From assembly GCA_020848545.1 (NCBI GenBank), contig JADLHZ010000091.1:62001-126000 (forward strand): 64,000 nucleotides of DNA, written 5' to 3'. The translations under genes and the position numbers were made by a program. Shown in pieces: positions 35,632 to 51,944 of this stretch. The stretch's first letter is position 1. Every line of letters starts with the position of its first letter. Below the pieces are notes generated by a model. That model saw only the letters and a list, made by a program, of their open reading frames with translations, ran no database searches and was not told the origin of the DNA. The DNA comes from Deltaproteobacteria bacterium (GTDB taxonomy: Bacteria; Myxococcota; JADLHZ01).

Positions 35632-36426
35632 ATGTCCTTACAGCTCTCCCGTCCGCTCGTTGTGTTCGATTTGGAAGCCACTGGTCGGGACCCCTTCAAC
35701 GATCGGATTGTCGAGCTCGGCGTGGTCATCGTGAAACCCGACGGTCAGCAGTTTGTCAGGGACTGGCGCATCCATCCGACGATCCCGATCCCGCCGGAAG
35801 TGACGCTGATTCACGGCATCACCGATCAAGACGTCGTCGGTTGTCCGACGTTTGCCGAGCTGGTGCCGACGTTGATCTCGATCTTCACCGACGTCGACGT
35901 CAGCGGCTTCAACGCGCGCGGCTTCGACGTGCCGATGCTCGACTGCGAGTTCATGCGCGCGGGCGTGTCGCCGTCGCCGCTCGAGCAAGCGCGCATCGTC
36001 GATAGCAAAGAGATCTTCCACAGCAAAGAGCCGCGTGATCTCTCGGCGGCCGTGCGGTTCTACTGCAAGGAGGAGCTCGTCGGCGCGCACGGCGCGAAGG
36101 CCGATGCGCTCGCCGCGACGAAAGTGCTCTTGGCTCAGCTCGATCGCTATCCGGATCTTCCGCGCTCGGTCGACGCGCTCGTGCCGCTCTTTCAGCCGAA
36201 GGAGCGCTACGTCGATCCGACGCGCAAGCTGAAGCTCGACGACAAAGGCGAAGCGATGATCAACTTCGGCCAACACCGCGGCACGAAGCTCACCGAGCTC
36301 GTGGAAAAAAAACGGGATTACCTCGAGTGGATCATGCAAGGTGAGTGGCACCCGAAGGTCAAAGAGGCTGTCAAAGCCGTGCTCGATCGCTTCCCGGCGA
36401 GCGCGGCGCAGAGGAAATCATGGTGA
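35632..36426 (+). CDS. DEDDh 3'-5' exonuclease (DNA polymerase III epsilon/ExoX-like)
   Basis: 264 residues from ATG 35632 (a TTG two codons upstream is possible). Exonuclease motifs are complete: ExoI F-D-L-E-A-T-G with Asp/Glu, ExoII V-S-G-F-N-A-R-G-F-D, and ExoIII H-G-A-K-A-D-A-L-A-A with His and Asp. The C-terminal F-G-Q-H-R-G-T-K-L…D-Y-L-E-W-I-M segment resembles the tail of exonuclease X. It degrades single-stranded or mismatched 3' ends; polymerase proofreading cannot be excluded. Its last seven bases overlap the start of the DUF2135 gene, which is probably accidental rather than a functional link. Confidence 0.9.
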   Translation: MSLQLSRPLVVFDLEATGRDPFNDRIVELGVVIVKPDGQQFVRDWRIHPTIPIPPEVTLIHGITDQDVVGCPTFAELVPTLISIFTDVDVSGFNARGFDVPMLDCEFMRAGVSPSPLEQARIVDSKEIFHSKEPRDLSAAVRFYCKEELVGAHGAKADALAATKVLLAQLDRYPDLPRSVDALVPLFQPKERYVDPTRKLKLDDKGEAMINFGQHRGTKLTELVEKKRDYLEWIMQGEWHPKVKEAVKAVLDRFPASAAQRKSW

Positions 36427-37322
36427 TCGCCGTCCTGCTCTCGCTGGTGTTGTCATCCGCGCCTCCGAACGAGCGACAGGAAGGCGTGCCGATCGGCAAG
36501 GGCACGACGCTCGCCACGGTGAAGCTCGATGAGCCGCGCGGCGGCTGGAGCGTCGATCGCATGATCATGGTCAAAGGCTCGGTCAGCGACACCACGGTCG
36601 ATCCGATCGTCATCAGCATCAACGGCGATCGTTATCTGATGCGCACTTTTCACGGCCGCTTCGAGCGCAAGTTCCCGGCGAGCACCGGCAAGAACATCGT
36701 GACCGCGATGGCGACGAACAAGGCGGGCACCGCGACCGCGCAAGCGACGGCCTACGCGCAGGTGCCGGTCGTGCCGATGAAGGTGGTGCTGACGTCGGAT
36801 ACCGACGGCGTCTACACCGACTTGCACTTGTACGAGCCGACGAACGTGTCGGAAAAGGATCGCGCGCTCGACTACGAAAAGATGGCGCACGTGTACTGGG
36901 CGAACACCGCCAGCCCGTCGGGCGGCACCTTCTTCTTGAACGACCAAGGCGGCAGCTTCGATCAGCCGGGCTACGGGCCGTATCTTTATATCCACCGCGC
37001 GCCGCCGAAGGGCGTCTTCTTAATCACCACGAACTATTGGCCGAGTGGCGACAAGGCGCACACCATCGGCACGCTGAACCTCACCTTGTTCGAGGGCACG
37101 GCGCAGGAGCTGAAGCGCCGCGTGAACGTGCCGTTGGCGACGCCCGGGACGACGCAGGTGCTCGCCTGGGTGAACTTCGTCGATGGGCAAAAGGCGCTCG
37201 TGTATGTGCCGGGGCAGGACCCCGTGCCGAGCGGCGCCTTGTGGCCGAAGAACCTCGAGGAAGTCGCGCTGAAGGCGACCAAATCCGGCGGCGGCGGAGG
37301 CGACTACGGTGGCGAGTTCTAG
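36420..37322 (+). CDS. yfaP: DUF2135 (YfaP-like) secreted protein, first gene of alpha-2-macroglobulin cluster
   Basis: 300 residues from ATG 36420, preceded by AGAGGA; the frame is open earlier but the signal peptide (M-V-I-A-V-L-L-S-L-V-L-S-S-A) fixes the start. The mid-region has a carbohydrate-binding-like beta-sandwich, then D-T-D-G-V-Y-T-D-L-H-L-Y-E-P, S-P-S-G-G-T-F-F-L-N-D-Q-G-G and G-P-Y-L-Y-I-H-R-A…N-Y-W. These are the DUF2135 signature, with D-L-H and G-P-E/Y-x-Y motifs. The protein is periplasmic and of unknown biochemistry. The gene overlaps the next one by 14 bases, and its C-terminus is Gly-rich. Confidence 0.82.
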   Translation: MVIAVLLSLVLSSAPPNERQEGVPIGKGTTLATVKLDEPRGGWSVDRMIMVKGSVSDTTVDPIVISINGDRYLMRTFHGRFERKFPASTGKNIVTAMATNKAGTATAQATAYAQVPVVPMKVVLTSDTDGVYTDLHLYEPTNVSEKDRALDYEKMAHVYWANTASPSGGTFFLNDQGGSFDQPGYGPYLYIHRAPPKGVFLITTNYWPSGDKAHTIGTLNLTLFEGTAQELKRRVNVPLATPGTTQVLAWVNFVDGQKALVYVPGQDPVPSGALWPKNLEEVALKATKSGGGGGDYGGEF

Positions 37323-37917
37323 CGCTGCCCTCGTCGTCGCCGTGAACGTGGCCGTGGCCGTGGCCGAGATCGCCGCGTTTCCGGCCACGGCCACGGCCAC
37401 GACCACGGCCACCTTGAGAAAAGAGATCGCCACGGTCGCATTGGCCCAGGCCAAGAAGCCGGATCCTTCGTGGCACCCCGAGCAGCGTGACTGCGCCGGG
37501 CTCGTGCGCTTCGCCTACCGCGCCGCGTACGCGAAGTGGGATCGCGCGCGCTTGGCGACGCCGCTCTGGCGCGACGCACGTGGCGCGGCCATCCCGTTCG
37601 CCGACGCCGAGACGCTGCTCGCCGAAAACTTCGTGGCGCTCGGGCGCGATGCGGAGACGCGCGCACAGTCCGGCGACGTGCTCGCTTTCACGACCGGCGA
37701 TCACGGCTACCACTTGATGCTCTACGTGCGCGGCGAAGATCGCGCGCGCACGCCGGCGCTCGTCGTGTACTCGCCGGGCGACGGCTCGAGCGAGGTGCGC
37801 GTCGGCGAGCTCCGCGCGCTGCAGCACGAGGCGCCCGCGGAATGGCGACCTGTCGCGGACAATCCGCGCTTCTTAGGGTTCTATCGGTTCAAGGAGTGGG
37901 GCGATGGCGAACACTGA
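37309..37917 (+). CDS. yfaT: DUF1175 (YfaT-like) protein with repeat-derived signal sequence
   Basis: 202 residues, GTG start after GGCGGAGG. From residue 45 it has the DUF1175 pattern: W-H-P-E-Q-R-D-C-A-G-L-V-R-F-A-Y-R, S-G-D-V-L-A-F, a D-H-G-Y-H-L-M-L-Y segment, V-V-Y-S-P-G-D-G, and D-N-P-R-F-L-G-F-Y-R-F. Cys in D-C-A-G and His in H-L-M suggest an NlpC/P60-like Cys/His hydrolase arrangement, which I have not confirmed. The first 35 residues (A-A-L-V-V-A-V-N-V-A-V-A-V-A-E-I-A-A-F…) coincide exactly with a hexamer-repeat palindrome. A TTG at 37414 is a repeat-free alternative start. It overlaps both neighbours. Confidence 0.8.
   Translation: MASSSAALVVAVNVAVAVAEIAAFPATATATTTATLRKEIATVALAQAKKPDPSWHPEQRDCAGLVRFAYRAAYAKWDRARLATPLWRDARGAAIPFADAETLLAENFVALGRDAETRAQSGDVLAFTTGDHGYHLMLYVRGEDRARTPALVVYSPGDGSSEVRVGELRALQHEAPAEWRPVADNPRFLGFYRFKEWGDGEH
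37339..37412 (+). repeat. hexamer-repeat palindrome inside coding sequence
   Basis: This is the GGCCGT-type palindrome also found at 4181-4244; 29 bases are identical. It lies in the start region of the DUF1175 gene, with left arm at 37339-37367 and right arm at about 37381-37412. Read in frame, it encodes a hydrophobic Ala/Val stretch. Confidence 0.7.
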
Positions 37918-39460
37918 TCCTCCGAAGTCGAATCTGAAACAGCGGAACCCGGGCGTGATCATCGCGGTGGTCGTGACGGTCGTTCTCGCGTTCGGCTTGT
38001 TCTTGCTGCGCGATCACTTCACGAGCTCGCGCGACAAGATCACGCCGAAGGATCCGCAGACGGCGTTGCCGAAGCGCGATCTTGCGGCGAAGCCGATGAC
38101 GGTACCGACCGATCCCGCGCTCGTCACGGTGATCGTCGACGTCAACGATCCGGCGGCGCTGAAGCAGGTCGCCGACACGAACGCCTGGCTCAAGCAAGCG
38201 GTCGAGTCGCCGCTCGGGCGCGGCTTCGCGGCCAGCTGGAGCGCGTTCTTCCAGTCGAAGGGCGAGGATCTGCAGGCGAGCTTTCGCGGCACGGTGCTCC
38301 AGTTCTTCTTCGATCGCTTCTTCACCGAGCCGTTCAGCCTCGTGTGGTTCGGCGGTGACGCTGCCACCGGCACCCCAGCGGTGATCCTCGACAAGCTCTC
38401 GAGCGGCGCGGTGTCTGCGCTCGACGCGATGAGCGGCATCGCGGCGCGCGGGTCGTTCACCGCCACGCACTGCCCCGGCCAGGATCCGCCGCTCGTGCAG
38501 AAGGACAAGGAGGGAAAAGACATTCCGGCGCCGGTCAAGCACACGATCACGCGCTGGCTCGTCGCCGAGCACGCGATCTTCGTGGGCAAGAGCGATGATC
38601 GCATCGTGCTCTCGGCGAAGCCGACGGCGGTGCTGCAAGGCCTCTGCGCGAAGGTCGCCGATCACAAGCGCGGCAAAGCGGCGCTCGAGCTCACGCTCGT
38701 GGCGGAGCGCTTCGGCCGCGAAGCGCAGGCGCTGGCGGCGTTGCTCGGACTCGAGGGCGAGGTGCGCTTCTCGGTCGCCGCCGCGCAGAGCACGCTGACT
38801 CCGCTCGGCGTGAGCGCGTCGCTCGCGGCGCCGGATCGCTTGGCGACGCAGGCGCCGACCGACGAGTTGCTCAAGGTGATCCCCGAGGACACGCCGGTCG
38901 CGGCGCTCCTGCAAGTGGCGCTGCCGCCGAAGCTCGACGAAGCATCGATCGCGGCGCACTTGAAGGGCGGCAGCAAAGACAAGCTCGTCCCACGCCAGGT
39001 CGCGCTCGTGTGGAATCCGCGCGGCATGAGCGGGCCCACGGAGATCGCGCTCGTATGGAGCCGCGCTGAGGACGAGGCCGCCCTGAAGACGATCTTCAAC
39101 GGGCGCAACCAGCTGGTGACGAAGAAGGCATGCGGTCAGCTGGTGCTCGCGTCCGCGCAGGCGCTCGCCGAGCGGATGGAGCGGAGCTGCAAGGGCAACA
39201 CGCCGTCGCGCTTGAACGCCGCCGCCACGGTCGTCGCGCAGGCGAAGGCGGCGCAAAGCGTGGCCCTGCAGGTGCACGTCGGTCAGCTGCTCTCGGGGCT
39301 GATGATCGACGCGTATCGTGCGGAGCAGACGCAGAAGAAGATCGGGCCGCTGCCGAAAGAGATCGAGCAGGCGAAGCAGCAGCTCGACGCGCTTCCGTTC
39401 TTCGGCTTCAGAGGTCGCGTCGAAGGCAAAGTCCTCGTCGCGGAGGGGTTCAGATCATGA
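37904..39460 (+). CDS. DUF2138-like (YfaA-like) inner-membrane-anchored periplasmic protein
   Basis: 518 residues; ATG 37904 follows AAGGAG by 7 bases and lies inside the end of the DUF1175 gene. One N-terminal helix (P-G-V-I-I-A-V-V-V-T-V-V-L-A-F-G-L-F-L-L, residues 16-35) anchors a large periplasmic domain. Distant similarity to YfaA/DUF2138 rests on the domain layout, the V-I-P-E-D-T-P-V-A-A-L-L-Q segment and the genomic position in the cluster. No catalytic motif is apparent. The next gene starts within its stop codon (ATGA). Confidence 0.68.
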   Translation: MANTDPPKSNLKQRNPGVIIAVVVTVVLAFGLFLLRDHFTSSRDKITPKDPQTALPKRDLAAKPMTVPTDPALVTVIVDVNDPAALKQVADTNAWLKQAVESPLGRGFAASWSAFFQSKGEDLQASFRGTVLQFFFDRFFTEPFSLVWFGGDAATGTPAVILDKLSSGAVSALDAMSGIAARGSFTATHCPGQDPPLVQKDKEGKDIPAPVKHTITRWLVAEHAIFVGKSDDRIVLSAKPTAVLQGLCAKVADHKRGKAALELTLVAERFGREAQALAALLGLEGEVRFSVAAAQSTLTPLGVSASLAAPDRLATQAPTDELLKVIPEDTPVAALLQVALPPKLDEASIAAHLKGGSKDKLVPRQVALVWNPRGMSGPTEIALVWSRAEDEAALKTIFNGRNQLVTKKACGQLVLASAQALAERMERSCKGNTPSRLNAAATVVAQAKAAQSVALQVHVGQLLSGLMIDAYRAEQTQKKIGPLPKEIEQAKQQLDALPFFGFRGRVEGKVLVAEGFRS

Positions 39461-42400
39461 ACGGCGCAAAGTCTTTGTTCCTCTTGCTGCTGCTCGTGCC
39501 AGCATCCGCCGGAGCGAAGCCGCTCTACATCACCGTGCCGCGCACGTTCTCGACCACCGAGCGCGCGCAGGTGAACGTGGCGTTTGCGGGCAAAGAGCCG
39601 GTCGAGCTGCGCATCTTGAAGCCGGACGCGCTCGACAAGTTCGTCACTGATCAAGCGAACCTACGCCGCGCGTACGTGGCGCCGACGACGCAGCTGAACC
39701 CCGGCCGATATTTGTCGATCGGCACGAACGCCGTGCAGAGCCCGGGCAGCTTCCTCTACTACGCGATGAGCGACACGTTTCGAAAAGCCGTCGCGCCGTC
39801 GTTGCCTGAGCGCCCGGAGCGCCCGCGCGATCTGCAGCGCATGAAAGAAGGCCCCGAGAAGCTCGTCTCGAATCCGCCTGGCATGACGCTGGTGAAGAGC
39901 CAGTGGTTGAACCTCGATCTCGGCGGCGACACCATCGACTTCAACGTTCCCGGCTTCGACGCGTGGGGCGGCAGCAGCGGCTATCAAGAGCGCACCGTGC
40001 AGCTCGCGCCGATGAGCGCGGGGCTCTACGTGCTGCAGCTCGTGCAAGGGACGATCGAGGGTCAGGTGACGCTGGTCGTCACCGATCAGACCGTGCAAGT
40101 GAAGCAGACCGACGGGCGCTTGCTCGTGCGCGTGGCGGGCCGCGATCAGAAGCCGGTCGCGAATGCGGCGATCACGGTGTTCGCGCCCGGTAAGCAACTG
40201 GCGAGCGGGACGAGCGACAAGAACGGCGAAGCGATCCTCGAGGTGACGGCGCCGAAGGTGCTCGTGCTCAGCAAGCGCGACGCCGACGTCGCGATCATCG
40301 ACACCGACTTCTACTCGACGCTCGCGATCGCGCCGGACGTGTTCATCTATAGTGATCGGCCGATCTACAAGCCGGGCGACGACGTGCAGTTCCGCGGCGT
40401 CGTCCGAAAGCCCGCGTCGTTCCTCGCTGAGCTGCTCTTGCCGAAGAAGCGCAGCGTCGAAGTGCAGATGCTCCTGCAAAGCGGCGGGCCGTTGAAGACG
40501 ACGGCGACGATCGACGAGTTCGGATCGTTCTTCGGCAAGCTCAGTGTGCCGGCCGGAACGCCGACCGGCGTCGTGCGCTTGGTCGCGACGGTGGAAGCGG
40601 CGCCGAAGGACAGCGCCGAGCACCAAGCCGAAGCGCGCGTGCAAGATTACGTCAAGCCCACGTTCTTCCTCGAGGTGACGAGCCAGCAGGAGGGCGTCAA
40701 GCCGGGCGAGAAGATCACCGTGAAGGTGCGCGCTCGCCGCTACGCTGGCGGCGTGCCGAAGAACACGAAGTACGAATACTTCCTCTACCGCACGCAGCTC
40801 GAGACGGCGGCCTGGGTGGACGACGCAGGCAAAGGCGGGCAGGGCAGCGCCGTCACCTACGGCAGCGCGTCGACCACCGAGGGCAAGCTCAGCCTGCCGA
40901 AGCGCCTCTATTCATCGCTGCAGACGCGCATGGAGAACGCGCAGCCCGATGCCGATCCGTGGGCCACGGCGCCGGCGTTCGACAAGAACGGCGAAGCGAC
41001 GATCAGCGTCGACGTGCCGGCGCTCGAAGAGGGCGAAGCGCGGATGGCGTTCAAGTACACGCTGAGCGTCAAGGCCAAAGACGAGCAGAACAGCGAGGCC
41101 GTCGCCTCGAAGCCGTTCTTCCTCAGCGATTCAGACGTCGTCGCGCAGGTGGGCCTCGGCAAGAAGCTTTTGAAGAAGGACGAGCCCGCGATGGTGGCCG
41201 TGCGCGCGCAGACCCTGTCCGGCAAGTCGTTCGGCGCCTGCGAGGGGACGCTCACGTTCTTCTTGCGCGACAGCAAGGGCGAAGAACGGAAGCTCGACGA
41301 GAAGCCAGTGAAGCTCGGCGACGACGGCGTCGTGCGCGTCGCGTTGCCCACCGGATTCGTCGGCACGGTGATCGCGCGGGCGAGCTTGAAGGACAAGAAA
41401 GGCCGGAGCAACGAGAACGAAGCCGAGGCGCTCATCATCGGCAGCGGCGGTGAAGCGGTGGCGAACGTGCCTGCGCTTACGACCGAAGCGCTCGGCGACG
41501 TGCTCGAGCCCGGTGCGATCGCGGAGCTCGCGGCGCTCTTTCCCGAAGGCTGGGGACCGGGCGGCAAGGACGCGGGCAGTGTTTGGATCACGTTGAGCGG
41601 CAGCACGATCTTCTCGACCTCGCGCGCCGACGTTTCGGGCCGTACCTTCGTCCACCGCTTCACGATCGAGAAGCGCTTCGGCAGCGTGATCTACGCGTCG
41701 ATCGCATACCCGACAGCGAGCGGACGTTGGGACGAGCGCAGCGCGGCGTTTCGCATCGTGCCGAAGACCCGCGTCCTGAACGTGCGCGTCGAGCCGGGCA
41801 AGGCCGAAGCGACGCCGCTCGGTGAGCAGACGATCGCGCTCAACGTGACGAACAGCGACGGCGAAGGCGTGCAAGCGTCGGTGTCGCTCGGCGTCGTCGA
41901 CAAGGCGGTCTACGCGCTGCAAGCCGAGTTTCGTCCGAGCGTCATCGACTTCTTTTATCCCGTGGCCCGCAACAATGTCAGCTCGTTCTATTCAATGGAA
42001 TTTCAAGGTTACGGCTATGGCGAGCAGCTCGCGCGGATGAAGCTCGGCCTCCGCCCGTACGAGTTCGCCGCGGTGAAGCCGCCGTCGCGCCGGCCGAAGG
42101 ATCTCGATCGCGACACCGCGTTTTGGTCGCCGAGCATCGTCACGGCGAAAGACGGGCACGCGACCGTCGCGTTCAAGATGCCGTCGAACCAAACGCTGTG
42201 GGTCGTCACCGCCGTCGCCGCCGACGCATCGGGCCGCTTCGGCGAAGGGCGCGCCGAGTTCGCGAGCCGGGGCAACCTGAGCCTCGCGCTCATGCTGCCG
42301 CAATTTCTGCGCGCAGGGGACGAAGCGCAAGGCAGCGTGCGTGTCGCGCTCGGCGCCGAGGGGAAGGCCGGTCAACGTGTCGCGCTCGATCTCGGCGGTG

Positions 42401-44157
42401 CCGGTGTCACGCCGATGCAGAAGGACGTGACGCTCGCCAAAGGCGACGAGCAGATCGTGCCGGTGAGCGTGAAAGCGTCAGCGACGGGCGCCATCGTGGC
42501 GGACTTGAAGGCCACGATCGGCAGCGAGGCGCTCGCCGATCACAAGCGCGTCGACGTGCATCCGGCGGCGATCGAAGAACGGATCGCCGTGAGCGCTTAC
42601 GGCGGCGGAGAGCTGCAGCTCGCCGCCGCGGGCGATCGCTTGCTGGCGCCGGCCGAGCTCGTTCTCGTCCCCGGCTCGGTCGACGCGGCGCTGTCGAGCG
42701 TCGAAGACCTGCTGACGTATCCCTTCGGGTGCTTGGAGCAGCTCGTCGCGACGACCATCCCGAACATCGCGCTCTATCACTTGCTGCAAAAGAGTCAGAC
42801 GCTTTCGCGCCTCGATCCGCAGAGCCAGGCGCTCATGCAGCTCGCCCGCTCGCGCGCGATGCAAGGCACCGATCGCATCTTGGCGCTGGCGCAAAAGGGC
42901 GGCGGCTTCACGTGGTTCTCGGGCTATACGACGCCGAGCGTGGCGCTGACGCTGATCGCGCTCGACGGCCTCTCGTACGCGATCGACGCCGGCGTGGTGC
43001 CGAAGGAAGCGTCAGAGGTCACCGAGAGCGCCAAGTGGCTCGAAGGCGCCGACGATCTGCCGTTCGCGCTCGACGCCACGCGCGCGTACGTGCTCGCGCG
43101 CCTCGACGGTCCGAAGGCCGCGGCGCGCGTGCGATCGCTCGTCGACAAAGTGGAGCCGAGCGGCGACTTGTACTCGTTGGCGATCGTCTCGCTGGCGGCG
43201 AACGAGGCCGGCATCGCGAACGAAGCGGGCTTGAAGGATCGGCTCGCGGGCATCGTCGCCAAGAGCAAGACGCTGCTGACGCAGAACGCTGCGCTCACCG
43301 ACGCGGCGTACTACACGTACCCGCTGCGGCACGTGGGCCTCGCGGCGATCGTCGCGCACGCCACGAGCGGCAACATCACCGACGCCGATTTGAAAGACGC
43401 GAGGAAGCGCTTCATCCAAGCGGTGGCGTCGCCGGAGCTCTCGACCTTCGATCGCAGCACGATGCTGCTCCACCACCTGTGGCTCATCGAGAAGGACGCG
43501 AAGACGATGCAGGCGATGACGGCGCCGGGCATCGACGTGAAGGGCGGGGCGACGCTCGCGCCGCGCGGCTTCGGGATGGCAGCCACGCTCCCGCAGGGCG
43601 TCACGAGCGTGAAGGTGCAAGCGTTCGACGGCGTCGCCACCTTGCAAGCGCGTGCGTCAACGCCGTTTGCCTCCGTGCAAGCGAAGAGCGAAGGCATGAG
43701 CATCCAGCGCACGTACTATCTCTTGCGCGATCAAGGACGGAAGAAGCTGAGCGAGGGCGAGGTCGTGAAGGTGGGCGACGAAGTCTACGTCGAGCTCGAG
43801 TTCAACGCGCAGAACGGCGAGCAGTGGAAGAAGCTGCGCTCGGCGTACTACGTGATCGAAGACGGCGTGCCGGCGGGCTTCGTCGTCCTCAGCGAAGACA
43901 AGACCTACCGCGTCGCACCGTACGGCTTGCCGCTCGCGCACGAAGCGTTGAAGCAGCGCGCCTTCACGCCGGAGAAGGCGACGTTCTTCTTCGAGGAGCC
44001 GGCGTTCTGGAGCGACTCGCCGCGGACCATCGGCTACGTGATGCGCGCGCAGTTCGCCGGCAAGTTCCAAGCGCCGCCGGCGACGATCACCGACATGTAC
44101 GCGGCGAAGGTGAACGGGCGCACGAAGGCGGGGGCGATCACGGTGCAAGGGCGCTAG
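39457..44157 (+). CDS. yfaS: bacterial alpha-2-macroglobulin (YfaS-like), thioester intact
   Basis: 1566 residues, a full-length type with signal peptide (M-N-G-A-K-S-L-F-L-L-L-L-L-V-P-A-S-A-G-A). MG-type beta domains follow, with the typical Y-S-D-R-P-I-Y-K-P-G-D-D-V-Q-F-R-G. The body contains W-S-P-S-I-V-T-A-K-D-G-H-A-T-V-A-F-K-M-P and N-Q-T-L-W-V-V-T-A-V-A. The thioester motif G-C-L-E-Q is present with Cys1092 and Gln1095. The protein should trap proteases by thioester chemistry in the periplasm, protecting the envelope. In enterobacteria the yhfM/yfaS paralogues are linked to cell-wall enzymes. It is the centre of a five-gene cluster. Confidence 0.93.
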   Translation: MNGAKSLFLLLLLVPASAGAKPLYITVPRTFSTTERAQVNVAFAGKEPVELRILKPDALDKFVTDQANLRRAYVAPTTQLNPGRYLSIGTNAVQSPGSFLYYAMSDTFRKAVAPSLPERPERPRDLQRMKEGPEKLVSNPPGMTLVKSQWLNLDLGGDTIDFNVPGFDAWGGSSGYQERTVQLAPMSAGLYVLQLVQGTIEGQVTLVVTDQTVQVKQTDGRLLVRVAGRDQKPVANAAITVFAPGKQLASGTSDKNGEAILEVTAPKVLVLSKRDADVAIIDTDFYSTLAIAPDVFIYSDRPIYKPGDDVQFRGVVRKPASFLAELLLPKKRSVEVQMLLQSGGPLKTTATIDEFGSFFGKLSVPAGTPTGVVRLVATVEAAPKDSAEHQAEARVQDYVKPTFFLEVTSQQEGVKPGEKITVKVRARRYAGGVPKNTKYEYFLYRTQLETAAWVDDAGKGGQGSAVTYGSASTTEGKLSLPKRLYSSLQTRMENAQPDADPWATAPAFDKNGEATISVDVPALEEGEARMAFKYTLSVKAKDEQNSEAVASKPFFLSDSDVVAQVGLGKKLLKKDEPAMVAVRAQTLSGKSFGACEGTLTFFLRDSKGEERKLDEKPVKLGDDGVVRVALPTGFVGTVIARASLKDKKGRSNENEAEALIIGSGGEAVANVPALTTEALGDVLEPGAIAELAALFPEGWGPGGKDAGSVWITLSGSTIFSTSRADVSGRTFVHRFTIEKRFGSVIYASIAYPTASGRWDERSAAFRIVPKTRVLNVRVEPGKAEATPLGEQTIALNVTNSDGEGVQASVSLGVVDKAVYALQAEFRPSVIDFFYPVARNNVSSFYSMEFQGYGYGEQLARMKLGLRPYEFAAVKPPSRRPKDLDRDTAFWSPSIVTAKDGHATVAFKMPSNQTLWVVTAVAADASGRFGEGRAEFASRGNLSLALMLPQFLRAGDEAQGSVRVALGAEGKAGQRVALDLGGAGVTPMQKDVTLAKGDEQIVPVSVKASATGAIVADLKATIGSEALADHKRVDVHPAAIEERIAVSAYGGGELQLAAAGDRLLAPAELVLVPGSVDAALSSVEDLLTYPFGCLEQLVATTIPNIALYHLLQKSQTLSRLDPQSQALMQLARSRAMQGTDRILALAQKGGGFTWFSGYTTPSVALTLIALDGLSYAIDAGVVPKEASEVTESAKWLEGADDLPFALDATRAYVLARLDGPKAAARVRSLVDKVEPSGDLYSLAIVSLAANEAGIANEAGLKDRLAGIVAKSKTLLTQNAALTDAAYYTYPLRHVGLAAIVAHATSGNITDADLKDARKRFIQAVASPELSTFDRSTMLLHHLWLIEKDAKTMQAMTAPGIDVKGGATLAPRGFGMAATLPQGVTSVKVQAFDGVATLQARASTPFASVQAKSEGMSIQRTYYLLRDQGRKKLSEGEVVKVGDEVYVELEFNAQNGEQWKKLRSAYYVIEDGVPAGFVVLSEDKTYRVAPYGLPLAHEALKQRAFTPEKATFFFEEPAFWSDSPRTIGYVMRAQFAGKFQAPPATITDMYAAKVNGRTKAGAITVQGR

Positions 44158-44201
44158 GAGCGACGGCCGGTGGGAACTGTGTTTGCTCCTGGGCGGACCT
44201 C

Positions 44202-46388
44202 GTGATCGGCGTGCTCTTCTTCGTGGCCTCCTTCGACTGGCGCGGTCCCGTCGAGCACCGCGCCGAGGTCGAAGCCACCGCCAAGAAGACCTACGCCGAG
44301 CTGCAAACGACGTACGCGCGCGCGACCGGGGCCAGCGCGCCGGAGCCAGGGGCGATCGTCATCGAGCCCGGCGAGGCCTTGAACGCACGGCACGCCGGCA
44401 CCGCGTCGCTCGGGAGGATCCGCGTCCGTGCCGGGAACGTAAGCGCGCTCCGGCACGAGATCGCGCATCAGTTCCTGTTCGGCGTTTGTGCGCATGCGAG
44501 CGAGGACAAGCTCTTTCACGAAGCGTTTGCGATCGCGGTGAGCGGCGAGCTCGAGGCGTGGATCGACGAGGGCTACTTCTCGTCGACGAAGGCGGTCGCG
44601 ATCCTCACGGGCGGCGCGCGGCTCGACGGCGCCTTCGACGGGACGGAGGCGCGGCGGGCCCTCGCGCGGCTCGTCGCGGACGGCGCTCAGGCAGGCGCGT
44701 TGCCGCTCGCGATCGAGCGCCGCTTGAAGATGTGCGCCAGCGGGGAGCGCTGGCGGCCGATGCGCGTCGAGGAGCTCTCGGCGCCGAGCGAGCCGCTGAC
44801 CGGCGACGCCTTCGTCGTGCTGTCGCGGCACTCGGGCGAGATCCTCGTGAAGGAGGGTGAGGTAGAGACCGCCATGCCCTTCGGCTCGACCCTGAAGCCG
44901 TTCGTGGCGGCGGGCGCGCGTGAGGCCCTGCCTGCCCTGGCAGTCGATGCGAAGGATCCACTCTGGCGCTGCGGCGAAGCGCTGCCAAAAACGATGACGC
45001 TGGCCGAAGCGCTCGCCCGATCTTGCAACGGCTACTTCTTGGCGTGGGCGAAGCGCGCCGCGGGTCTCGAAGCGTTCGGCGCGTACGGGCCGCTCTTGAT
45101 CGCGCTCGGCCTCGCGCGCGCGCCGGCCGCGATCGACGAAGCGCTCGGCTTGCGGCCCACGCTCGCGCTCTCGCCCTGGGCGCTCGCGCAGGCGTACCGG
45201 GCGCTCGCGGCGGCGCGGCCCGAGCTCATGGCGATGCTCGAAGCGACGCCGACCCACGGCACGCTGCTCGGCCTCGGCGTCGAGGGCGCGCTCAGCGGCG
45301 TGGCGATGAAGAGCGGCACCGTGCGCGATCCCGAGAACCGCGTGCAGCTCGGCTGGCTCGTCGGCGTGAGCGCGGATCATGTGATCGTGATGGCGCGCCA
45401 AGGGAAGATGCCGCGGGCGTTTGCCGAGGACTTCGCGGGGCGGGTGACGGCGGTGAAGAAGCGCGAGCTCGAAGCTGCCGCGCGTGTGCAGAGCTTCGCG
45501 CTCCTCGACGGCGATGACGTGGAGCTCGCGTGCGACGGCGTGCCAGTGGCGATCAGCGCGGGGGCGCCTTTGCTCTTGCCGCGCACCTTTCGGGCGATCG
45601 CGCGGCTCGTTTCGCAGGAGAACGATCGGGCGCTGTGTCTCGGTCGGCCCTTCGTCGCACGGCGCGTGGCGACCGACACGTCGGGCATGAACGGCCGCCT
45701 TTATGCCGGCGTGCTCGCGCGCGATTCGGCGCCGCGTTTGGCGGGCTCCGACGCCGCGACCCCGCGCGCGCGCCGAGGATCCGACTACATCTTTACGACG
45801 ACCGAAGCGCGCTACGTCGCCGGCGTGCTGCAATCGGAGGACGCGGCGATCAGCGGCGAAGCACGGCGCGCGCTCGCGAAGGTGATCTTGCACAACGTGC
45901 GGAGCGCGGCAGAGCGCCACGGCGGCCGGCCGGTGTGCGACACGACCCACTGCCAGGCGTTCCTCGGCACGCCGAAGGAAGCGCTCGCAGCGAAGGGTGT
46001 GGCCGGCTTGGCTCCGTGGATCGACGCGCGCGGGTGGCTGCCGTTTTCGCGCGGTGGCGCTGAGCCCTGGCAGATCGCCAAGCCGCGCGCAGAGGTGGCC
46101 CGGCTGCTCGGGGTGGACGCCGTGAGCCTCGCGTTCGGCAAGGGCCAGGCGAGAGTGCGCGTCGTCGATCCCGTCACGCTCGTCGAGCACGATGAGCTCA
46201 TCGCATGCGAACGCTTGCGTGGACCGTTGAAGCTGCCCGCGTGTCCGAGCAGCGCGACGATCGACGGCGGCGTCTTCGTGTTTCGCGGCGTCGGCGCCGG
46301 GCACGGCGAGGGGCTCGCGGTCGAAGCGGCGAAGCAGAGCAGCGGCGACGCCGAGGCGATACTGCGCCAAGCGTACCGCGTTCAGTAG
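44202..46388 (+). CDS. DUF2300-like (YfaQ-like) three-domain protein: HExxH + PBP-like + SpoIID-like
   Basis: 728 residues from GTG 44202, beginning with a membrane or signal helix (V-I-G-V-L-F-F-V-A-S-F). Three regions carry recognisable active-site patterns. (1) H85-E-I-A-H89 with a second acidic H-E at 106-107, like a gluzincin peptidase. (2) S229-T-L-K232, S274-C-N276 and K370-S-G-T373 in the spacing and order of the SxxK/SxN/KTG triad of penicillin-binding proteins and beta-lactamases. (3) An E-A-R-Y-V-A-G-V-L-Q-S-E546-D segment with D-T-T-H-C-Q-A-F-L-G, like SpoIID lytic enzymes. E. coli YfaQ, the tandem DUF2300 relative, is about 550 residues, so this version has an extra N-terminal domain. 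A role in peptidoglycan remodelling beside macroglobulin is inference. Confidence 0.72.
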   Translation: MIGVLFFVASFDWRGPVEHRAEVEATAKKTYAELQTTYARATGASAPEPGAIVIEPGEALNARHAGTASLGRIRVRAGNVSALRHEIAHQFLFGVCAHASEDKLFHEAFAIAVSGELEAWIDEGYFSSTKAVAILTGGARLDGAFDGTEARRALARLVADGAQAGALPLAIERRLKMCASGERWRPMRVEELSAPSEPLTGDAFVVLSRHSGEILVKEGEVETAMPFGSTLKPFVAAGAREALPALAVDAKDPLWRCGEALPKTMTLAEALARSCNGYFLAWAKRAAGLEAFGAYGPLLIALGLARAPAAIDEALGLRPTLALSPWALAQAYRALAAARPELMAMLEATPTHGTLLGLGVEGALSGVAMKSGTVRDPENRVQLGWLVGVSADHVIVMARQGKMPRAFAEDFAGRVTAVKKRELEAAARVQSFALLDGDDVELACDGVPVAISAGAPLLLPRTFRAIARLVSQENDRALCLGRPFVARRVATDTSGMNGRLYAGVLARDSAPRLAGSDAATPRARRGSDYIFTTTEARYVAGVLQSEDAAISGEARRALAKVILHNVRSAAERHGGRPVCDTTHCQAFLGTPKEALAAKGVAGLAPWIDARGWLPFSRGGAEPWQIAKPRAEVARLLGVDAVSLAFGKGQARVRVVDPVTLVEHDELIACERLRGPLKLPACPSSATIDGGVFVFRGVGAGHGEGLAVEAAKQSSGDAEAILRQAYRVQ

Positions 46389-48234: not shown

Positions 48235-48860
48235 AGGCGGTCGTCTTCGATCTCGACGGCACGCTCATCGACGCGTTCGACGGGATCCACGACGCCTTGA
48301 CGCATACGATGCGCGCGCTCGGATTTTCGCCGCATCCCTTCGCGACGACGAAGCGCATGGTCGGGCATGGGCTCGAAGAGCTCCTCGCGCGAGCGATGCG
48401 ACCCGAGGTGGTCAACGAGGCCGTGCCGATCTACCGCGCGCGCTACAAGGAGATCGCGGTGGCGACGGCCAAGCCGCTGCCTGGCGCTGACCGCCTGCTG
48501 CGGGCGCTCGTCGGTCGCGGTGTCGGCCTCGCGCTCGCGTCGAACAAACCCTCGTATTTTTCGCAGCAGATCCTCGACGGGCTCGGCTGGGGCGCGTGCT
48601 TTCGCGCCGTGCTCGGGCCGGACGTCGTCGGTAAGCCGAAGCCGGCGCCGATCATGTTGGAGACGGCGCTCGAGCAGCTCGCCGTGTGCGCGGCCGACGC
48701 GCTGTACGTCGGTGACATGACGGTCGATCTGGAGACGGCGCGCGCGGCGAAGGTTCGCGCCGTGCTCGTGACGACGGGGAGCATGAGCGCCGAGGAGCTG
48801 CGCGCCGCCGGGGCCGAGATCGTCGTCGCGAGCTTGGACGAAGCGCTCCCGTACACTTAG
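48231..48860 (+). CDS. HAD-family phosphatase, phosphoglycolate phosphatase-like
   Basis: 209 residues from GTG 48231 (a TTG one codon upstream also possible). HAD motif I F-D-L-D-G-T-L-I, motif II A-S-N-K-P-S, motif III K-P-K-P-A-P, motif IV V-G-D-M-T-V-D. The cap is a small alpha-helical C1 insert. It is a Gph-like enzyme acting on 2-phosphoglycolate or a related small phosphate ester. Its stop overlaps the convergent kinase stop by 4 bases. Confidence 0.85.
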   Translation: MKAVVFDLDGTLIDAFDGIHDALTHTMRALGFSPHPFATTKRMVGHGLEELLARAMRPEVVNEAVPIYRARYKEIAVATAKPLPGADRLLRALVGRGVGLALASNKPSYFSQQILDGLGWGACFRAVLGPDVVGKPKPAPIMLETALEQLAVCAADALYVGDMTVDLETARAAKVRAVLVTTGSMSAEELRAAGAEIVVASLDEALPYT

Positions 48861-50535
48861 GCGCGCGGGAGCGTGACGACGAAGCGGGCGCCCCGGTCAC
48901 CTTGTGGCGCCAGGATCAGATCGCCGCCGCGGCGCCGGCAGATTTCGCGCGAAACCCAGAGCCCGAGGCCGGTGCCGCTCTGCGCCGGCTTCGTCGTGAA
49001 GAAGGCATCGAAGATCCGCGCGCGCGCGTCGGCCGGTACGCCGTTGCCGCCGTCTTCAACGGTGATCGTGAGGCCGCTCTGCGAGGCCACGTTGCTGACG
49101 GTGATGGTGCTGTCCTTCGGCGTCGCGTGGAGCGCGTTCACGAGCAGATTGTGCAAGACCTGCTCGAGCTCGCCGGGCGCACAGAGCGCCGTGCCATCCC
49201 CATGCCGTTCGACGCGCACGTTCTTGGCGGCGAGCTCCGGCGCGATCAACGCGATCGTCTCTTCGAGCGCCGAGGCCGCCGAGATCGCGCGCGACGGCAC
49301 GCCGCCGCCCTGCAGCCCGGCGCGCAACGCGTCGACGATGGCGTGGATGCGTGCGAGGCCGCGCCCCAAGATCGCAAGCCCGGCGCGCACCGGTGGCGGC
49401 GCTTCGAGCAGGCGGCGATCGATCTCGGCGTGAGCGCCGAGCGCGGCGTTCAAGGGATTGCCGATCTCGTGGGCGACGCCGGCGACGAGCGTGCGTGTCG
49501 TGTCGACGCGACCGCGCTCGTGCATCTCCTTCTGGCGACGAACCTGGGCGATGCGCACCCCGAGCGCCGCGGTGAGGAGGAGCGCCTCGATGACCGAGCC
49601 GACCTTCGTCGTCGCGTCGTAGGGGAGCAACGAGGGGACGGCGCCGACGTCGGTGAGGACGGTCGCGCCGATCGCGATGAGGAAGACGCCGAAGCCGGCG
49701 ACGAAGAGCCGCACGCTCGCGTCGCCGCGAAGAAGGCCGGGGATCGCGAGCGCGATGATCGCCGCCGGGATGACGAAAGAGCCGATGGCCACGATCAAGA
49801 ACGCCGCTTCTAGCCACAGGACCAGCGCGGCGCCGAGCACGAGCCACGTGCCAACGAGCAAAGGCCGCGACGCGCGCGGTGAGAGCGCGAGGAAGCGGCG
49901 GCTGAACGCGAGCGCGGACAGCAAGACGAGCGCGAGCAAGAGCAGCTCGAAGCGTTGTTCGATGCGCTTGTGCAGCGGCAGCACCGCGAGCCACACGCCG
50001 TCGAAGCCGAGCTGCACCGCGAGGTACGTCGCTTGATAAACGATGTACGAGAGCCGCGACCCATCGCGCAGCGCGAAGAAGGCGATCACATTGAAGAGGA
50101 GGATGGCGGCGATCGTCCCGTAGTAGATACCGTCCGAATACGTCTTCGCAGTCACGTGTGCGACGAAGGCGTCGAAGGACAGCGCGAACGGTTCGACGTT
50201 GATCGCGTTGTCGCTCGCGATGCGAAAGCACGCCGCCGATCCCGGCGCAGCGCGGACCGCGTGCACGCGCGCGAGCCATGGCGCCGGAGGCACGACGACT
50301 TCGCCGCGGGTAAAGGCGAGCGAGTCGAAGTTCCCGGGCACGACGACGATCGGCGTCTCGGCAGAGACTTCGGCGCAGAAGTGCAAGGCGTCGGTGGTGT
50401 AGCCGGCGTTGTAGCGGGCTCCTTCGACGGGCGTCATTTCCAGCCCCTCGACGGAATCGAGCGCGCCGCTCCGATCACGGTAGACACTGAGGGCGAGCGA
50501 GGGGGCAGCGACGAGCAGCGCCGCGGCGAGCGCGA

Positions 50536-50539
<4 letters not shown>
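48857..50539 (-). CDS. 7TMR-DISM sensor histidine kinase
   Basis: 560 residues, GTG start overlapping the stop of the regulator gene (GTGA). A signal or first helix is followed by an extracytoplasmic DISMED2-like domain (about 25-135). Then seven helices start near residue 138 with the 7TMR-DISM pattern Y-S-D-G-I-Y-Y-G-T-I-A-A-I-L-L-F-N. The catalytic part has the HisKA His357 in A-G-V-A-H-E-I-G-N-P-L-N, then HATPase motifs N-L-L-V-N-A-L-H-A, D-G-G-N-G-V-P and G-T-G-L-G-L. It presumably phosphorylates Asp52 of the linked regulator. Such kinases sense carbohydrates or other small ligands; the ligand is unknown. Confidence 0.92.
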
Positions 50540-51876
<1,337 letters not shown>

Positions 51877-51911
51877 GGTCTCGATCGCTAGCACACGAAA
51901 GTGGGGCAAAG

Positions 51912-51944
51912 AAAAAGCCCGCGACACCTCTCGGCATCGCGGGC
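51912..51944 (-). terminator. rho-independent terminator for HU gene
   Basis: On the minus strand, a perfect 8-base stem (GCCCGCGA with TCGCGGGC, 51917-51944) is followed by a T-run (51912-51916), about 85 bases after the HU stop and before the regulator gene. This separates hup from the downstream signalling operon. Confidence 0.75.

Follow-up and report, generated by a model that had tools for sequence, protein, structure and literature searches.

The window analysed here is a 64,000-nucleotide stretch of contig JADLHZ010000091.1 from a Deltaproteobacteria bacterium (Myxococcota). Directly downstream of a gene for a bacterial relative of alpha-2-macroglobulin (A2M), a protease trap of the immune system, it carries at positions 44202 to 46388 of the forward strand a gene for a protein that combines three enzyme-like modules: a gluzincin-like domain, a penicillin-binding transpeptidase (TP) domain and a SpoIID-like domain. 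The uninterrupted frame opens at a GTG codon at 44202 and runs for 728 residues to 46388. This open reading frame is a genuine gene, being uninterrupted, the last in a tight operon and represented by relatives in Myxococcota and Bdellovibrionota. An antisense open reading frame at 44154-46370 was rejected as a gene, because high-G+C DNA often has long antisense frames and the relatives conserve the sense frame. The gene, its modules and the motifs within them are as follows.

44202..46388 (+): coding sequence of the three-domain protein, 728 residues with a GTG start; relatives are of equal length
44202..44786 (+): N-terminal gluzincin-like domain, approximately residues 1-195 (AlphaFold model, Foldseek, VIA-align)
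44454..44468 (+): HEIAH (85-89), zinc-peptidase motif; H85, E86 and H89 invariant in 46 sequences
44517..44522 (+): H106-E107, with E107 as the likely third zinc ligand; E107 invariant in 46 sequences, H106 kept in 45 of 46
44796..45476 (+): penicillin-binding transpeptidase domain, residues 199-425 (VIA-align Z 21.4; Foldseek E 3e-8)
44886..44897 (+): S229-T-L-K232 (SxxK), aligned to S510/K513 of E. coli PBP1b
45021..45029 (+): S274-C-N276 (SxN), aligned to S572-M-N574 of PBP1b
45309..45320 (+): K370-S-G-T373 (K[ST]G[ST]), aligned to KTGT 698-701 of PBP1b
45489..46385 (+): SpoIID-like lytic-transglycosylase domain, approximately residues 430-728 (profile and Pfam SpoIID matches)
45837..45839 (+): E546, counterpart of the catalytic E101 of C. 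difficile SpoIID (invariant; profile alignment)
45918..45956 (+): zinc-site counterparts H573, C579, H583 and C584, aligned to H134, C140, H145 and C146 of C. difficile SpoIID, plus Q585
46287..46316 (+): GVGAGHGEGL (696-705), the SpoIID GHG motif, aligned to GYGHGVGM of solved SpoIID

Three modules and their active-site residues

The AlphaFold model of the protein, built from a 27-sequence alignment, had a mean predicted local distance difference test (pLDDT) score of 81.6, with values above 85 across nearly all of residues 200-425. A Foldseek search with the model returned penicillin-binding proteins (PBPs) at every rank (E 3e-8 to E. coli PBP1b), and VIA-align superimposed residues 200-425 of this predicted model on E. 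faecium PBP5 with a Z score of 21.4 and a root-mean-square deviation of 2.5 over 215 residues. The fold search did not separate the PBP classes, and the class assignment rests on profile scores. Among the E. coli PBPs, the TP profile matched PBP1b (E 7.9e-7) and PBP1c (E 1.4e-4) better than PBP1a, the class B and the low-molecular-weight PBPs (E 0.003 to 0.1). No Pfam match to glycosyltransferase family 51 was found among the families listed for the 27 members. Because the closest profile match is PBP1b, with the three motifs in register, the module is classified by model and profile as a class A-like TP domain lacking a glycosyltransferase; its catalytic activity is predicted.

The C-terminal module was recognized through profiles, which were required since a single-protein sequence search of the PDB gave nothing useful. 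When all PDB sequences were searched with a profile of residues 420-728, the first matches were 5i1t, 5txu and 4rwr, all of them SpoIID structures, with E-values of 1.5e-4 to 3.4e-4, and the next match was at 0.19. The Pfam SpoIID family matched all 20 scanned members at E<=1 (best 4.1e-6). E546 lies in a Y..GV...E context typical of the SpoIID catalytic glutamate, and the G and H positions of the GHG motif are invariant in every sequence covering the region. In C. difficile SpoIID, E101 is catalytic and H134, C140, H145 and C146 are the proposed zinc ligands; the E101A, C140A and H145A variants were inactive in vitro, and H134A and C146A were partly active (PMC6221140). The module is thus SpoIID-like in sequence, with counterparts of the catalytic glutamate and of all four zinc ligands, and is predicted to bind metal.

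When residues 1-202 were modelled alone with AlphaFold, the mean pLDDT was 86.8. M1 and M61 zinc peptidases topped the Foldseek search with this model (best probability 0.99, E 0.014). VIA-align gave Z scores of 9.7 to M1 peptidases (172 residues) and 9.6 to a Vibrio-type collagenase, in alignments that span almost all of the domain; the matches shown for this domain were M1 peptidases, collagenases and leukotriene A4 hydrolase. The HExxH motif is followed by E107, with 17 residues between H89 and E107. Model and sequence together identify the domain as gluzincin-like, an assignment with moderate backing from the fold scores and strong backing from the motif, and zinc binding and proteolysis are predicted.

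Conservation was assessed in 46 aligned sequences from Myxococcota and Bdellovibrionota and in a 27-member set. Fourteen residues were invariant in all 46 sequences, namely H85, E86, H89, E107, S229, K232, S274, C275, N276, K370, G372, H583, C584 and Q585. Residue 371 was either T or S, residue 373 was T in 45 of the 46, and E546, H573 and C579 were unchanging throughout the 27-member set. At identities as low as 27%, the active-site residues were still fixed or almost so. Shuffling the protein 20,000 times produced the PBP triad in order twice, HExxH alone 309 times and both together never; the H-C-HCQ string did not occur, and GxGxGHGxG occurred once. The motif set exceeds chance because the shuffles rarely held the triad and never the triad with HExxH, and the conservation across relatives is the more telling evidence on this point.

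These results bear on an earlier note, made from the sequence alone, that had read three sets of peptidase and cell-wall active-site signatures in this protein. Every motif it quoted lies at the residues it gave (HEIAH 85-89, H106-E107, STLK 229-232, SCN 274-276, KSGT 370-373, E546 and HCQ 583-585), and folds, profiles and motifs agree with its description of a transpeptidase-like fold, a lytic-like domain and a peptidase-like domain in one protein beside an A2M. The retention of the serine and lysines in homologues is borne out by the invariance of S229, K232 and K370 in the 46 sequences. The PBP geometry it expected finds support in the predicted fold and in the profile alignment, which put the three motifs on those of PBP1b, as judged by fold and register and not by coordinates. 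For the SpoIID-like segment it had cited E546 and HCQ, to which H573, C579 and GxGxGHGxG (696-704), missed in the note, are now added.

The operon, its alpha-2-macroglobulin and its relatives

The gene closes an operon of five genes, whose other members and A2M thioester motif are listed here.

36345..37322 (+): DUF2135 protein (YfaP-like), whose gene opens the operon (Pfam E 6e-4, slightly short of the cut-off; order repeated in long loci)
37309..37917 (+): DUF1175 protein (YfaT-like) with an NlpC/P60-like signature, DCAGL[VI]R ... HLM (DUF1175 E 1.3e-31; NLPC_P60 E 3.3e-5)
37904..39460 (+): 518-residue protein whose N-terminus has a hydrophobic segment (identified by eye); by position it corresponds to YfaA (DUF2138), and it is conserved across loci
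39457..44157 (+): A2M of the YfaS lineage (Pfam A2M domains)
42730..42741 (+): C-L-E-Q thioester motif of the A2M (alignment with the A2Ms of relatives)

Head-to-tail overlaps join the first four genes, and 44 bases separate the A2M gene from the three-domain gene. For the A2M, the ATG at 39457 is a likelier start than 39130; from this ATG the gene overlaps the preceding one by 4 bases. The order DUF2135, DUF1175, membrane protein, A2M and three-domain gene, with the last in final position, recurred in nearly every sufficiently long locus, and in a Bdellovibrionales locus (L057) every operon member except the membrane protein was detected. The Cys and His of the NlpC/P60-like signature of the DUF1175 protein are retained in homologues. 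Given the NlpC/P60 match and the conserved DCAGL and HLM, the DUF1175 family may be a family of peptidoglycan peptidases. The 518-residue protein (37904-39460) matched no Pfam family. Its place in the operon is that of DUF2138/YfaA/MagB, but a profile comparison with DUF2138/YfaA was not significant (E 0.24) and does not support homology. Convergent with the operon, a 7TMR-DISM histidine kinase and an adjacent NtrC-type sigma-54 response regulator are encoded at 48857-51927 on the reverse strand; this pair is absent beside the operon in relatives, except for a partial NtrC-like match in locus L040.

Bit scores of the A2M were 125 against the Citrobacter YfaS homologue and 46 against YfhM. GC[LVI]EQ was present in every aligned myxobacterial and Bdellovibrionales A2M, and the Citrobacter copy reads GGVIN. 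By sequence, the A2M is nearer to the YfaS lineage than to YfhM and belongs to a multigene operon without PBP1c. Two further A2Ms with CxEQ were observed in the same genome (G000). One, on contig C122 at 89107-95579 (L077), overlaps a PBP1c-like gene in the type I arrangement, and the other lies on contig C161 at 72667-73962. With this A2M-PBP1c-like pair present elsewhere in the genome, the operon is no substitute for a missing one. The suggestion in the earlier note that the three-domain protein could be an all-in-one equivalent of the PBP1c/A2M pair is therefore not supported in that simple form; the protein also has no glycosyltransferase module.

Relatives of the three-domain protein were found in 83 of 195 Myxococcota genomes, mostly full-length and with 43-47% identity. 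They were found by exact peptide patterns, which favours near kin, so this distribution is thinly sampled. Named species with a relative include Myxococcus xanthus (operon at locus L041), Archangium and Corallococcus. Two relatives in Bdellovibrionota (Bacteriovoracaceae and Bdellovibrionales) had 27-29% identity. The plasmid collection searched held no relative of the three-domain protein, the viral contigs searched held no YfaQ relative, and the PHROGs search gave no match. A locus titled 'Comamonas sp. KCTC 72670' (L031) has the myxobacterial operon at an identity equal to that of Myxococcus and is probably mislabelled or contaminated.

The operon corresponds to the yfa operon of E. coli and the mag operon of P. 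aeruginosa. In E. coli the order is yfaA (DUF2138), yfaT (DUF1175), yfaS (A2M, a pseudogene in K-12), yfaQ and yfaP (DUF2135), and a Citrobacter plasmid has the same order intact. The TP profile aligned with residues 42-199 of YfaQ (hhalign, E 2.5e-5); the SpoIID profile aligned more weakly with residues 321-397 (hhalign, E 0.0082), and YfaQ itself has a Pfam SpoIID hit. The family Pfam DUF2300 (PF10062) was matched neither by the three-domain protein nor in the 195 Myxococcota genomes, with the E. coli control matched. The 'DUF2300-like' label used previously thus fails as a Pfam assignment but keeps a basis in gene order and weak domain homology to YfaQ.

A 2025 study describes YfaQ as a protein with a predicted signal peptide and with transpeptidase-like and SpoIID-like parts, and reports that yfaQ deletion gave wide cells and a phenotype profile like those of mepS, mepK and nlpI deletions, genes that fall in its phenotype network (PMC12282094). 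We observed that the C-terminal 35 residues of YfaQ (L063:2649-4298) contain HEYLHLAF...LDENYIE, an HExxH...E pattern that is kept in Citrobacter; the passages on YfaQ that were consulted do not mention it. Judged by this pattern, the YfaQ C-terminus could correspond to the N-terminal peptidase-like domain described here. A circular permutation between the two proteins, with HExxH at the C-terminus in one and the N-terminus in the other, would be an attractive explanation but is not claimed: the hhalign score of the ends was 13.7, a value reached in 30 of 150 column shuffles. The N-terminal part had been regarded as an addition to a shorter YfaQ. YfaQ is indeed shorter (549 residues), but it ends in its own HEYLH...E, so this part may not be a plain addition.

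Proposed function and alternative explanations

The gene, the operon, the predicted folds of the first two modules, the sequence homology of the third and the conserved catalytic residues lead us to favour, with fair though not high confidence, a periplasmic enzyme of peptidoglycan remodelling or repair whose three predicted catalytic modules work with an A2M trap. The chain would comprise a gluzincin-type zinc peptidase, a PBP-type DD-transpeptidase or DD-peptidase and a SpoIID-type lytic transglycosylase, and would be produced with a thioester A2M and three partners, one of them NlpC/P60-like, probably docked on the A2M. In envelope defence, the A2M would trap an invading protease or hydrolase, the SpoIID module and the NlpC/P60-like DUF1175 partner would trim damaged strands, and the PBP module would re-crosslink stems; the gluzincin module would possibly process a peptide or the A2M itself. 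Export, which is probable, the activity of each module, peptidoglycan as the substrate, participation in an A2M complex and the purpose of repair are what we infer. The mag operon protects P. aeruginosa from some peptidoglycan-targeting effectors of the type VI secretion system (PMC12663445), and the Mag proteins form a complex; loss of MagE affects MagD processing (PMC5764988). The main idea of the earlier note is plausible, and its observation is confirmed, on stronger grounds than the note gave, with the corrections on DUF2300, PBP1c equivalence and the 'added' peptidase part.

Several points speak against this interpretation. The protein from the window, taken alone, scored below the cut-off against Pfam Transpeptidase (E 0.02) and reached 14.7-16 bits (E 0.051) against Pfam SpoIID (PF08486), whose cut-off is 23 bits. 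The pLDDT of the full-protein model falls below 50 in parts of residues 580-620, and the VIA-align Z score of 9.7 for the N-terminal domain is only moderate. The N-terminus is weakly signal-peptide-like, with a short hydrophobic stretch. The activity of every module, in all members, is a prediction from sequence and models, and a single chain that both builds and cuts peptidoglycan would pose a control problem. MagD and MagE formed no stable binary complex in vitro (PMC5764988), and MagE is taken as the YfaQ counterpart from gene order.

A bolder form of the remodelling interpretation, which we regard as possible but tentative, is a self-contained 'trap, cut and re-seal' machine. Here a thioester A2M that captures attackers covalently would share its operon with, and be docked to, a peptidase/lytic-transglycosylase/transpeptidase enzyme, and the myxobacterial and Bdellovibrionota form would be a catalytically complete relative of mag and yfa; the thioester and the PBP and SpoIID sites would have been lost together in enterobacteria.

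Among the alternatives, the one that survives best, though we consider it unlikely, is a maturation factor, whose gluzincin domain would process the A2M while the PBP and SpoIID modules serve chiefly to tether the complex to peptidoglycan. In P. aeruginosa, deleting magE reduces MagD and seems to block its processing (PMC5764988), magE directly follows magD as the three-domain gene follows the A2M gene, and HExxH and E107 are invariant. However, the authors of PMC5764988 see chaperone action or signal-peptide processing behind the MagE effect, and mere binding needs no invariant nucleophile, SxN asparagine, KTG lysine or SpoIID glutamate.

We are slightly more doubtful of a role in predation, with the operon attacking prey peptidoglycan or shielding the predator from its own lytic enzymes. 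The holders found are mostly predatory groups (Myxococcaceae, Bacteriovoracaceae and Bdellovibrionales), but the pattern-based search, by favouring near relatives, sampled the distribution poorly, and the equivalent system in the non-predators E. coli and Pseudomonas has envelope phenotypes. An ordinary enzyme of wall growth or sporulation, with SpoIID-like activity in myxospores and an A2M link reflecting shared regulation only, seems improbable to us. SpoIID is a sporulation enzyme of Firmicutes and myxobacteria remodel peptidoglycan to sporulate, but the A2M operon is constant, and both Bdellovibrionota and E. coli (as YfaQ) have the protein too. Least probable is a non-catalytic scaffold of three relic folds: the full set is dispensable in E. 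coli and Citrobacter, where YfaQ lost the SxN asparagine, the KTG glycine and the SpoIID zinc motif, but across the 46 myxobacterial and Bdellovibrionota sequences the catalytic sets vary hardly or not at all.

The partners in type II A2M operons are annotated only as DUFs, and the myxobacterial version gives readable active sites. The intact TP, SpoIID and gluzincin sets, together with the NlpC/P60-like partner and the thioester A2M, allow a direct test of the proposed connection of A2M trapping with peptidoglycan repair, and the genetically tractable M. xanthus has the operon.

Comparison with known systems

Compared with the class A PBPs (PBP1b and PBP1c), the central module shares the TP fold and the three motifs in register, and in PBP1c, as here, GSxLKPF surrounds the nucleophile. 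Unlike these enzymes, the three-domain protein has no glycosyltransferase domain, and its TP domain is short (~227 residues) and joined to two other enzyme-like folds. The catalytic glutamate, the four zinc ligands of the C. difficile enzyme and the GHG motif are common to the C-terminal module and SpoIID (C. difficile, B. anthracis). Here, however, the module is fused to a TP domain, and the operon showed no SpoIIP-like amidase partner, although its DUF1175 protein resembles NlpC/P60. M1 and M61 peptidases and bacterial collagenases resemble the N-terminal module in predicted fold and HExxH ... E arrangement. It differs from these enzymes as a small domain heading a wall-enzyme-like protein, with the other M1 domains absent and the 17-residue H89-E107 spacing.

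At the level of the operon, the type I pair (yfhM-pbpC) likewise places a CxEQ-thioester A2M beside a transpeptidase-fold protein, but the operon and the A2M lineage are different. The gene set matches that of the yfa operon, the membrane protein excepted, but DUF2135 comes first in myxobacteria and last in enterobacteria. Unlike the A2Ms of the type II operons (yfaS/mag), the A2M here retains the CxEQ thioester, a motif that defines type I and is lacking in type II. A thioester in a yfa/mag-type operon blurs the division of bacterial A2Ms into type I and type II.

YfaQ is the closest parallel in arrangement: it lies directly 3' of a YfaS/MagD-lineage A2M, has DUF1175 and DUF2135 partners, and places a TP-like before a SpoIID-like region. 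It has 549 residues against 728 here, and in YfaQ and its Citrobacter relative SCG stands for SxN and KTW for KTG, and the H-C-HC zinc residues are gone. The pairing of TP-like and SpoIID-like regions is thus already known from YfaQ. New, judging from the literature consulted, are the completeness of the residue sets, the gluzincin-like domain at the N-terminus and the conserved fusion of three parts.

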